Assembly: GCA_902619615.1 (NCBI GenBank)
Contig: CACNFD010000003.1
Span: 1-64,000, forward strand
Direction: 5' to 3'
Length of the DNA stretch: 64,000 bases
Origin: an uncultured SAR116 cluster alpha proteobacterium
GTDB taxonomy: Bacteria; Pseudomonadota; Alphaproteobacteria; Puniceispirillales; Marisalimonadaceae
In this document: positions 13,434-17,893 of the stretch, in pieces
Position numbering within the stretch: position 1 is the stretch's first letter
Layout of the letters: every line of letters begins with the position of its first letter
Notes under the pieces: generated by a model
Database searches by the model: none
What the model was told of the DNA's origin: nothing
The model's input: only the letters and a program-made list of their open reading frames with translations
Program-made: the position numbers and the translations under genes

Positions 13434-13880
13434 TTATTTGTTACTGCTTGAAAATACAACTTTCCCTAGCAAATCAGTAAAACTTACCGCATCAGTGGTA
13501 TCGTATATAGTATCATCTGGTCTAAGAAAGGTTTCAGATGAACCAGGAATAATGTCCAAGAAATTACCTCCTAAAAGAGACGAAGATGCAATTCTTGCTT
13601 GTGAGTCATCTGGTATTTTTATTTCATTATTAAGTTTTATGTAAATCTTTGCGTTATAGTCTGCTAGATCAAGATCTAATTTAGTAATCTTTCCAACATT
13701 AATTCCTGAAATTTTTACATCATCACCATTTTTCAAGCCTGCTGAAGATCCAAATATAAGTGATATATTATATCCATTTTTTTGATTGCTATCAATCGAT
13801 TGCATGCCTAATATTAAAAAGAAAATGGCTGTTACTAAAACAACTGCTCCCATCAAAATTTCAACAGAACTGTATCTCAT
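13434..13880 (-). CDS. mlaD: MCE-domain lipid transport protein, MlaD-like
   Basis: A single-pass inner-membrane protein with an MCE domain. One transmembrane helix (about residues 8-27) precedes the MCE fold (GSSAGLKNGDDVKISGINVGKITKLDL, then SLLGGNFLDIIPG). MlaD subunits form hexameric rings that carry phospholipid between the membranes on behalf of an MlaFE ABC transporter. At 148 residues it has MlaD size. No mlaE, mlaF or mlaC gene is nearby, so the transporter must be elsewhere. It lies 26 bases upstream of the DUF2155 gene on the same strand and is divergent from nrdJ. Confidence 0.87.
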   Translation of the reverse strand: MRYSSVEILMGAVVLVTAIFFLILGMQSIDSNQKNGYNISLIFGSSAGLKNGDDVKISGINVGKITKLDLDLADYNAKIYIKLNNEIKIPDDSQARIASSSLLGGNFLDIIPGSSETFLRPDDTIYDTTDAVSFTDLLGKVVFSSSNK

Positions 13881-14052
13881 ATTTATAATTCCTAGTTAAT
13901 CTACTCGATGTTATTATATCCTATTTATAAAAATAATAAATCTGCATTATCAACTTTATTTTTTTTATAACTTTTTAATGCTTAAAAATTTAGTAAAATT
14001 AATGAGTTAAAAAAAAAAATAAAAAAAATTAAATTATGTCCTTTACGAAAGT

Positions 14053-14068
14053 ATACTAAATCATGTAG
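14053..14068 (+). promoter_or_regulatory. Distal NrdR-like box (degenerate)
   Basis: ATACTAAATCATGTAG matches the NrdR consensus acaCwAtATaTwGtgt at 10 of 16 positions. By itself that is weak. It lies exactly 31 bases (15 bases between boxes) upstream of a much better box, and NrdR sites usually come in pairs with 15-16 bases between them. Confidence 0.45.
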
Positions 14069-14083
14069 TTTATATTTTTGTTA

Positions 14084-14099
14084 TCACTATATATTGTGT
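14084..14099 (+). promoter_or_regulatory. Proximal NrdR box
   Basis: TCACTATATATTGTGT matches the NrdR consensus acaCwAtATaTwGtgt at 15 of 16 positions. NrdR is an ATP-cone repressor of ribonucleotide reductase genes. The site abuts a DnaA box and ends 15 bases before a TATAAT -10, so a bound repressor would occlude the -35 region. Confidence 0.75.
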
Positions 14100-14108
14100 T
14101 TATCCACA
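14100..14108 (+). promoter_or_regulatory. DnaA box, perfect consensus (R1 type)
   Basis: TTATCCACA is an exact match to the high-affinity DnaA box. It directly follows the proximal NrdR box and lies between that box and the TATAAT at 14115-14120, a position from which bound DnaA would affect the nrdJ promoter. Confidence 0.65.
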
Positions 14109-14170
14109 AGAAGTTATAATAATCAAAAATCATTTAATAAAAATTAAATTAAGGAAAAACAAGAAGTTAT
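14106..14170 (+). repeat. 12-base direct repeat in the nrdJ leader
   Basis: ACAAGAAGTTAT occurs at 14106-14117 and again at 14159-14170, 53 bases apart. The first copy overlaps the end of a DnaA box and the start of the TATAAT. No known factor is recognised for it. Confidence 0.5.
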
Positions 14171-14208
14171 TTAAATAAAATTGTTCAAATTAACTGCCAA
14201 CCAACAAC

Positions 14209-14217
14209 TTATCCACA
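14209..14217 (+). promoter_or_regulatory. Second DnaA box, perfect consensus
   Basis: A second exact TTATCCACA in the same orientation, 109 bases from the first and 68 bases before the nrdJ start codon. Two perfect copies so close together in an AT-rich genome are unlikely by chance. Confidence 0.6.
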
Positions 14218-14284
14218 GGTGGTTTTTAAAAATGCAGCAATGAATTATAAGTATTGTTTTCTTGATTGTAAAAAAGGAAAAAAG

Positions 14285-17200
14285 ATGAAGTTTGAAAGGC
14301 AATTTACAAAAAAAGGAAGTGATGCATACGCAGGTATGGAATTTAAAACCACTACAAGTGAAATTAGGAATCCTGATGGAACAATAGTATTTAGTGCACC
14401 TGATATTGAAGTGCCCGCAAATTACTCTCAGGTTGCAGCTGATATAATTGCGCAAAAGTATTTTCGAAAAGCTGGAGTTCCAGTATATCTAAAAAAAGTT
14501 AAAGAAGAAAGTGTACCCAATTGGCTATGGCGATCAGAACCAGATAAATCAAAATTAGATAAAATACCAGAAGATCAAAGATACAAAGGTGAAGAATCAG
14601 CCAAGCAAGTTTTCGACAGACTAGCTGGCACATGGACATACTGGGGATGGAAAGGTAATTATTTTACAACTGAAGATGATGCAAAAACTTACTTTGATGA
14701 AATGAGATTCATGCTAGCTGCTCAAATGTGTGCTCCAAATTCACCACAATGGTTCAACACAGGCTTGCATTGGGCTTATGGCATTGATGGTCCAAGTCAA
14801 GGTCATTACTATGTTGACTTCAAAACAAAAAAACTTGTTAAGTCTCAATCTTCATATGAACATCCTCAACCCCACGCCTGTTTTATTCAATCTGTAGCAG
14901 ATGATCTTGTGAATGAAGGTGGAATAATGGATCTTTGGGTTAGAGAGGCTAGGTTATTCAAATACGGATCTGGAACAGGATCCAATTTTTCTAAATTAAG
15001 AGGCAGTACTGAAGGTTTATCAGGTGGTGGAAGATCTTCAGGAATGATGAGTTTTTTAAGAATAGGTGATAGGGCTGCTGGAGCAATCAAATCTGGTGGC
15101 ACTACAAGAAGAGCTGCAAAAATGGTCACAGTTGATATAGACCATCCTGATATAGAAGAGTATATAAACTGGAAAGTCATTGAAGAACAAAAAGTTGCTG
15201 CTCTGGTAGCAGGCTCAAAATTAACCGCAAAAAATTTAAAATCAGTCATGGATGCTTGTAATTTAGATCATTATAATGACGAAGACAGATTAAATCCAAA
15301 AGTTAATAACGAGCTTAAAAAAGCAATATTAAATTGCCGCGCAGTAATGATACCTGAAAATTATATACAAAGAGTAATTCAATTTGCCGGCCAAGGATTT
15401 AAAGAAATTGAATTCCAAACTTACGATACAGATTGGGATAGCGAAGCTTACTTGACTGTATCTGGGCAGAATTCAAATAACTCGGTAAGAGTTAGTAATG
15501 AATTTTTAGAAAAAGTATCTCAAAATGGTAAATGGGATCTAAAAAGGAGAACTGACGGTGGTATTCATAAAACAGTAAATGCAAAAGAATTGTGGTCTAA
15601 GATTTCTGAAGCTGCTTGGGCTTGTGCAGATCCTGGTTTGCAATATGACACTACCATTAACGAATGGCATACTTGCCCTAACGCTGGTAGAATTAATGCG
15701 TCTAACCCTTGTTCTGAATATATGTTTATTGATGACACTGCCTGTAATTTGGCATCAATAAATCTATTACAGTTTAAGAAGGATGACACCTCATTTGATA
15801 TAAAAGCATATGAGTATACAACTAGATTGTGGACATTAACCCTTGAAATTTCTGTAATGATGGCACAATTTCCTTCAAAAGAAATTGCACAGAGATCTTA
15901 TGAATATAGAACACTTGGACTAGGTTACGCAAATATTGGTGGATTATTAATGTCTTGGGGTATCCCTTATGACAGTGACCAAGGAAGATCTATATGCGCC
16001 GCTCTTACATCAATAATGACTGGGATATCATATGCAACATCAGCAGAAATCGCTGGTGAATTAGGACCATTTCCTAAATATAAAGAAAATGAAAATAGCA
16101 TGTTAAAGGTTATAAGGAATCACAAAAGAGCATCAGAAGGTAAAACACGAGGTTATGAAGACCTTTCTATAAATCCGGTTCCTTTGATGTCTGAAGATTG
16201 CCCTGATCAAAACTTAATAACAGCTGCCAAAGATGCATGGGCTAAAGCACTCTCTTTGGGTGAAAAAAATGGCTATAGAAACGCTCAAGCTACAGTAATA
16301 GCCCCAACTGGAACAATTGGATTAGTAATGGATTGTGATACTACTGGTATTGAACCTGATTTCGCAATGGTAAAATTTAAGAAATTAGCGGGTGGTGGAT
16401 ATTTTAAAATTATAAATCGTGTTGTTCCTGAAGCACTTGCTCATTTGGGTTATGATACAGACCAAATTAATGACATGCAAAAATATGCTGTTGGTGCTGG
16501 TAGTCTAAAAGAATGTCAAGCAATAAGCCACAATGCGTTAATTTCAAAAGGTTTTACTAACAGAGAAATAAAATTAATTGAAGACTCTCTAGTGTCAGCT
16601 TTTGATATTAAATTCGTATTCAATCAATTTACCTTAGGAGAAGAATTTTGCAAAAATACATTAGGTATTTCTTCTGAACAATTGAATGATTTTAGTTTCA
16701 ATTTGTTAGAGTTTTTAGGTTTCACCCAAGAAGAAATAGATGTGGCGAATATTCACGTTTGTGGTGCTATGACTCTTGAAGGCGCTCCTCATTTGAATAA
16801 AAAACACCTTGCAGTTTTTGATTGTGCAAACGTTTGTGGTCGAATAGGTAAGAGATTCCTGTCCGTTGAAAGTCATATTAGAATGATGGCAGCAGCACAA
16901 TCTTTTATCTCTGGGGCTATATCTAAAACTATAAACATGCCTAATGATGCTTCTATAGATGATTGTAGTGATGCTTATATGTTGTCATGGAAATTGGGAA
17001 TTAAAGCTAATGCACTGTATAGAGATGGATCTAAATTAAGCCAACCACTAAATTCAGCACTTCTAGATAACGATGACATTGATGAAGACAATACAACGAT
17101 TGAACAAGATATTACAAAACGAACCAATGAAGTTGTTGAAAAAATAGTTGAGAGAGTTGTTAGGGCAGAACGTGAAAAACTACCACACAGAAGGAAAGGA

Positions 17201-17893
17201 TATACACAGAAAGCAATGGTAGGTGGTCACAAAGTATATCTTAGAACTGGTGAATATGAAAATGGGAAATTAGGTGAGATTTTCATTGATATGCATAAAG
17301 AAGGTGCAGCTTTTAGATCTTTGATGAATAACTTTGCTATTGCAGTGTCAATTGGTTTGCAATACGGCGTTCCTTTAGAAGAATTTGTTGAAGCTTATAC
17401 CTTTACACGCTTTGAACCTCAAGGAATGGTAACTGGAAATGATACTATTAAAATGTCAACTTCGATCCTTGATTACATTTTCAGAGAATTGGCTATCTCA
17501 TATTTGGACCGAAACGATCTTGGCCATGTAGGACCAGAAGATCTAGATTCAAGCACTACTGGCTCAGGTGATAACAAAGCGCTATTCTCAGAAAAAGTAG
17601 CTAGTCGAGGCTTTGTAAGAAGAGAATTAAAAGTTGTGTCTGGAGGTTCAAATAACATTTCAGTAATGCCACAAACCACTTCCCTAAAAGATCAAGATGT
17701 AGAATTATCAGATAATAATGATACTACTATTACTATCGATGAAACAAAGGCTCCAAGTCTTTCTCAAGAAATAGAAGCTAAAATAAAAGGATATGAAGGG
17801 GAAGCTTGTGGAGAGTGTGGAAATTTTACTCTAGTAAGAAACGGTACATGTATGAAGTGTAATACATGTGGTGCTACTTCGGGTTGTTCTTAA
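14285..17893 (+). CDS. nrdJ: Adenosylcobalamin-dependent ribonucleoside-diphosphate reductase (class II)
   Basis: Makes deoxyribonucleotides using vitamin B12 as radical source, without needing oxygen. The 1202-residue protein is the long NrdJ form. Visible are [12 protein letters not shown] near the N-terminus, the substrate-site loop [11 protein letters not shown], the cysteine loop SNPCSEYMF near residue 475, and [11 protein letters not shown]. The C-terminus is a zinc-finger-like tail with two CxxC pairs (CGECG and CMKCNTCG) that should relay electrons. I chose ATG 14285 because AGGA lies 6 bases upstream; an in-frame GTG at 14219 lies next to a DnaA box and adds residues unlike the family. 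ridA follows 14 bases later. Confidence 0.96.

Follow-up and report, generated by a model that had tools for sequence, protein, structure and literature searches.

Two perfect DnaA boxes upstream of nrdJ, which encodes the sole ribonucleotide reductase (RNR) detected in a bacterium of the SAR116 cluster, are unchanged in every genome of its genus that has the region intact and are best explained as functional DnaA sites that would place the gene under both the replication initiator and the dNTP sensor NrdR. We put the probability of this reading, which rests on comparative sequence analysis, at about 60%. RNR supply must match replication, and direct control by the initiator has been documented mainly for class I enzymes. 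Here the invariant boxes stand before the only RNR of abundant ocean bacteria, and this enzyme depends on B12.

The nrdJ upstream region

The 9-mer TTATCCACA occurs at positions 14100-14108 and 14209-14217 of the window (the whole 64-kb stretch of DNA that was analysed), both times on the plus strand, and no third copy was found on searching the window. This agrees with the initial annotation, which had described two perfect boxes in the same orientation. The draft genome (G000; 2.16 Mb, 99% complete), for which genome-wide statements come from pattern searches and retrieved stretches, holds 15 copies of TTATCCACA on the two strands together compared to 43 of a reversed control word. In most relatives within the genus, TTATCCACA is likewise scarcer than the reversed word.

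The intergenic region is bounded by a divergent MlaD-like gene (13434-13880, minus strand; TIGR04430, 128.5 bits) and by nrdJ itself (14285-17893, plus strand), a B12-dependent class II RNR gene (NF005736, 2165 bits against a cut-off of 1737) whose product has its nearest named relatives, at 98% identity, in SAR116-cluster alphaproteobacteria. nrdJ is the only PF02867 gene in the genome and hence the only RNR detected. The GTG at 14219, taken as the nrdJ start in a mechanical ORF call, was replaced by the ATG at 14285, which is conserved in all relatives.

The predicted nrdJ promoter, on the plus strand like all elements described below, consists of a -35 element TTTACG (14042-14047) and a -10 element TAGTTT (14066-14071) separated by 18 bp. 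It follows a family-wide pattern, TTTACN-N17..19-TAnnnT, that 40 of 41 family members share, among them genera lacking DnaA boxes, and transcription would be expected to start at ~14078. NrdR box 1 (ATACTAAATCATGTAG, 14053-14068), which is aligned and conserved in the genus, lies in the -35/-10 spacer. NrdR box 2 (TCACTATATATTGTGT, 14084-14099) is also conserved and, with one mismatch, is the best match to ACACWATATATWGTGT in the window. Two NrdR boxes ~31 bp apart, centre to centre, over the promoter are the layout of the NrdR regulon, and an nrdR gene is present in the genome (contig C29; TIGR00244, 172 bits).

DnaA box 1 (14100-14108) directly abuts NrdR box 2, as had been noted before, and does not vary among the 32 aligned sequences; DnaA box 2 (14209-14217) is likewise unchanged in all of them. 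The initial annotation had placed a box next to the -10 element, which does not hold: given a start at ~14078, as predicted from consensus promoters, both boxes would lie downstream of it, at about +22 and about +131 of a leader of ~207 nt. Between them is a leader element, TAAGGAAAAACAA (14150-14162), that is near-invariant in the genus and present as a single copy in the window; no start codon was found at the usual distance downstream of it. DnaA box 2 may sit in the loop of a weak inverted repeat, AACTGCC/GGTGGTT (14192-14224), a hairpin in which we have low confidence: in the genus its stems score 15.9 compared to 13.5 ± 0.47 with swapped flanks and 11.5 in shuffles, in sequences that are related and with a repeat that differs by clade. 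The region gave no Rfam match to a riboswitch or leader RNA, cobalamin riboswitches included, up to an E value of 5. A scan of the region yielded no terminator, and the only promoter match of the scan was on the opposite strand. Searches of G000 at nrdJ, oriC, and ccrM found neither GANTC sites nor CtrA sites (TTAA-N7-TTAA).

Domain IV of DnaA could be aligned over 93 residues with the DNA-bound E. coli structure 1J1V, and its RR, ARPRQ, and GG-DHTT motifs are retained. Since we take RR, ARPRQ, and DHTT to have DNA-contact roles, the protein is predicted to be able to read TTATCCACA. The nrdJ boxes also match the motif of the DnaA boxes in this bacterium's oriC.

Conservation of the boxes and the shared layout at ccrM

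Both boxes are perfect in all 31 genomes of the genus (g1) in which the upstream region is intact, and also in the sister genus g3, one contig of which begins after box 1. Across 32 sequences, the region has no invariant 9-column window other than the two boxes; its non-box columns have a mean pairwise identity of 0.73 and a tree length of ~6.1 (6.12) substitutions/site. This comparison shows the nrdJ DnaA boxes to be under strong purifying selection. The initial annotation had raised the coupling of a class II reductase to DnaA and had proposed conservation in relatives as a check; with the boxes unchanged in genus members and the sister genus, and with oriC clearly elsewhere, at hemE|coaE, the coupling is strongly supported at the sequence level. 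The two boxes are 107 to 131 bp apart across the aligned sequences, a spacing that, not being fixed, implies no defined cooperative geometry. Genera g2 and g4, represented by nine loci, lack the DnaA boxes and keep the core promoter and the NrdR-like box pair. In the tree, g1 and g3 group together with weak support, and g1, g3, and g2 group with a support of 0.99. The nrdJ boxes were probably gained in the ancestor of g1 and g3.

Among the 15 perfect boxes of the genome, the intergenic ones are the two at nrdJ, one at ccrM, and one at oriC (hemE|coaE). A comparison with four other genomes revealed no shared intergenic site beyond these three loci. The ccrM promoter (G000:C6:10781-10930; L008, L181) carries, conserved in the genus, an NrdR-like pair ~31 bp apart followed by one perfect DnaA box, which begins 1 bp after a conserved TATNAT; the TTGAC-N12-TATNAT-N1-box spacing is fixed in 27 ccrM promoters of the family. 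This DnaA box was found in 27 of 28 genus genomes and also in g2 and g3, and was absent from g4 and from the other families sampled. The left NrdR-like box falls within the last part of an rnhB-like gene that precedes ccrM, and part of its conservation may therefore be coding. In a search of eight genomes for the NrdR-pair pattern, 13 of the 16 matches were nrdJ or ccrM, against two control matches in total. These comparisons show that ccrM shares the predicted layout of nrdJ, an NrdR-like pair plus a DnaA box, and the NrdR regulon appears to include ccrM. In having a DNA methylase gene as an apparent member, the SAR116 set differs from the known NrdR regulon, which it resembles in the paired boxes over nrdJ. 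The initial annotation had centred the arrangement on nrdJ; it stands there, but extends further, to ccrM, beyond what that annotation had in view.

Regulatory readings

We propose that DnaA bound in the nrdJ leader and at ccrM would occlude or block RNA polymerase and hold transcription down. After initiation, DnaA would be released through hydrolysis to DnaA-ADP and titration by new DNA, and this release would raise dNTP synthesis and the level of the CcrM methylase as forks advance, with NrdR contributing dATP feedback. Repression or a roadblock is the likeliest mode because the nrdJ boxes lie in the leader and the ccrM box lies 1 bp after TATNAT. DnaA bound inside a transcribed region can act as a roadblock to RNA polymerase, as at E. 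coli asnC and guaB, each of which has a single consensus DnaA box in the transcribed region (PMC11317965); the target and the lineage differ here, and we infer the SAR116 roadblock from sequence. In E. coli, the preferred DnaA targets are double boxes spaced by 2-3 bp; of 32 perfect single boxes, only 13 showed binding in ChIP-seq (PMC11317965). This need for a double box in most cases may make binding less easy here, where no double box was found: the best neighbours of the nrdJ boxes at 2-3 bp spacing were at background level only.

That DnaA represses rather than activates is the least certain step, and we lean toward it by only a modest degree; the sign could be opposite because E. coli nrdA has been described as positively regulated by DnaA. 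DnaA could bind the boxes and activate nrdJ, for instance if it dislodged NrdR from the adjacent box 2; we consider such activation rather unlikely. The contact between DnaA box 1 and NrdR box 2 makes competition or anti-repression plausible, and the boxes before other alphaproteobacterial nrdJ genes sit upstream of the NrdR pair, where an activator might bind. Moreover, DnaA-ATP represses E. coli nrdAB at a high level and can activate it at a low level, and the Caulobacter RNR has been proposed to be DnaA dependent, among the G1-S genes (PMC8203912). However, both nrdJ boxes of the genus are downstream of the conserved promoter, and a site 1 bp after TATNAT, as at ccrM, would be an unusual position for an activator.

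A different view is that the boxes form a DnaA titration or nucleotide-exchange site that lies next to nrdJ by accident. datA and DARS are compact clusters of DnaA boxes, whereas here there are only two boxes ~109 bp apart, at a variable spacing and outside any such cluster. With few perfect boxes in the genome, such a pair could hold some DnaA, but the sites that recur, at nrdJ and ccrM, are each accompanied by NrdR boxes, which argues for gene control and leaves a datA- or DARS-like role improbable. More improbable still is that the nrdJ region is the replication origin, an alternative raised in the initial annotation and prompted by the perfect box pair and by an A/T-only stretch on its left. 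The intergenic region hemE|coaE-dnaQ, where alphaproteobacteria classically have oriC, is in G000 on a different contig from nrdJ and carries the box cluster (one perfect and three 1-mismatch DnaA boxes within 180 bp), and a perfect box lies upstream in 17 of 30 hemE loci of the genus, with a near-perfect one in most of the others. By contrast, nrdJ has just its two boxes, with no further 1-mismatch box in 13881-14284, and the sister genera without boxes still have nrdJ. Finally, that the 9-mers are chance or merely inherited sequence is scarcely credible: at least two copies per 64 kb were reached by 19 of 100 shuffles, so the count alone is not striking, but a pair no more than 109 bp apart is expected ~0.011 times genome-wide, and conservation of all 18 box columns over ~6 substitutions/site contradicts it.

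Taken together with ccrM, control of nrdJ by DnaA and NrdR leads us to a broader and more tentative proposal, for which we would give slightly less than even odds. In the SAR116 clade, DnaA and NrdR would form a two-gene switch (nrdJ and ccrM) through which initiation and dATP jointly set dNTP synthesis and the methylase, and this switch would have arisen stepwise, with the ccrM box preceding the nrdJ boxes, and independently of E. coli nrdAB. The common layout of nrdJ and ccrM predicts that GANTC methylation is linked directly to initiation and to the dNTP pool, and suggests that the supply, copying, and marking of DNA are switched together.

Initiator control of RNR is already known, mainly for class I (E. 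coli nrdAB, with a proposal for Caulobacter); what would be new here is a class II target, together with the placement of the boxes and the pairing with ccrM. E. coli nrdAB, which responds to DnaA, NrdR, Fis, and IciA, likewise has consensus DnaA boxes together with NrdR boxes that overlap the RNA polymerase site (PMC8203912, PMC12176259). It differs in enzyme class (Ia rather than II) and in having three boxes, including a cooperative double box, whereas SAR116 nrdJ has single boxes downstream of the predicted start. In Caulobacter crescentus, DnaA acts as a cell-cycle transcription factor for gcrA, ftsZ, and podJ, and RNR is a proposed target (PMC8203912); unlike that regulon, the recurrent perfect-box set of SAR116 comprises oriC, nrdJ, and ccrM only. 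That review (PMC8203912) does not mention ccrM, as a direct target of DnaA or otherwise. In a literature search that judged co-mentions by title and abstract and had sparse coverage of subscription journals, we found no report of DnaA regulating a class II nrdJ, and, within the same scope, none linking NrdR to CcrM or describing DnaA with NrdR in a pairing of nrdJ with ccrM.

nrdJ and ccrM promoters in other lineages

At least one perfect box was present within 500 bp upstream in 13 of 69 further alphaproteobacterial nrdJ loci (L028, L029, L032, L033, L042, L044, L067, L068, L082, L083, L088, L092, and L093), which belong to Kiloniella, Rhodobacterales, and other lineages. In this phylogenetically unbalanced sample of 69 loci, 14 boxes fell in the 34.3 kb upstream of nrdJ, compared to 3 each in the other intergenic DNA (41.2 kb) and the coding DNA (691 kb), an enrichment upstream of nrdJ with a binomial p of 0.002 and a shuffle mean of 0.29 (control DNA from the same loci). 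Unlike in the SAR116 genus, these boxes are upstream of the NrdR box nearest nrdJ and occur in either orientation. The data point to a repeated recruitment of DnaA boxes to nrdJ, and the different layout suggests that the coupling of RNR to DnaA evolved more than once. The convergence envisaged in the initial annotation fits both this difference in position and the absence of boxes from g2 and g4.

Outside this family, ccrM promoters of the order retain an NrdR-like box, and GATTC is often found where g1 to g3 have the DnaA box (ccrM promoters L308, L315, L317-L319, L321, and L323-L325 compared to L181-L208). With GATTC (CcrM) sites on one side and a DnaA box on the other, it looks as if methylation autoregulation had been replaced by DnaA. 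We note that a second, distant CcrM-like methyltransferase (26% identity) is encoded at G000:C5:34135-34542 (L210) and is also found in a few relatives.
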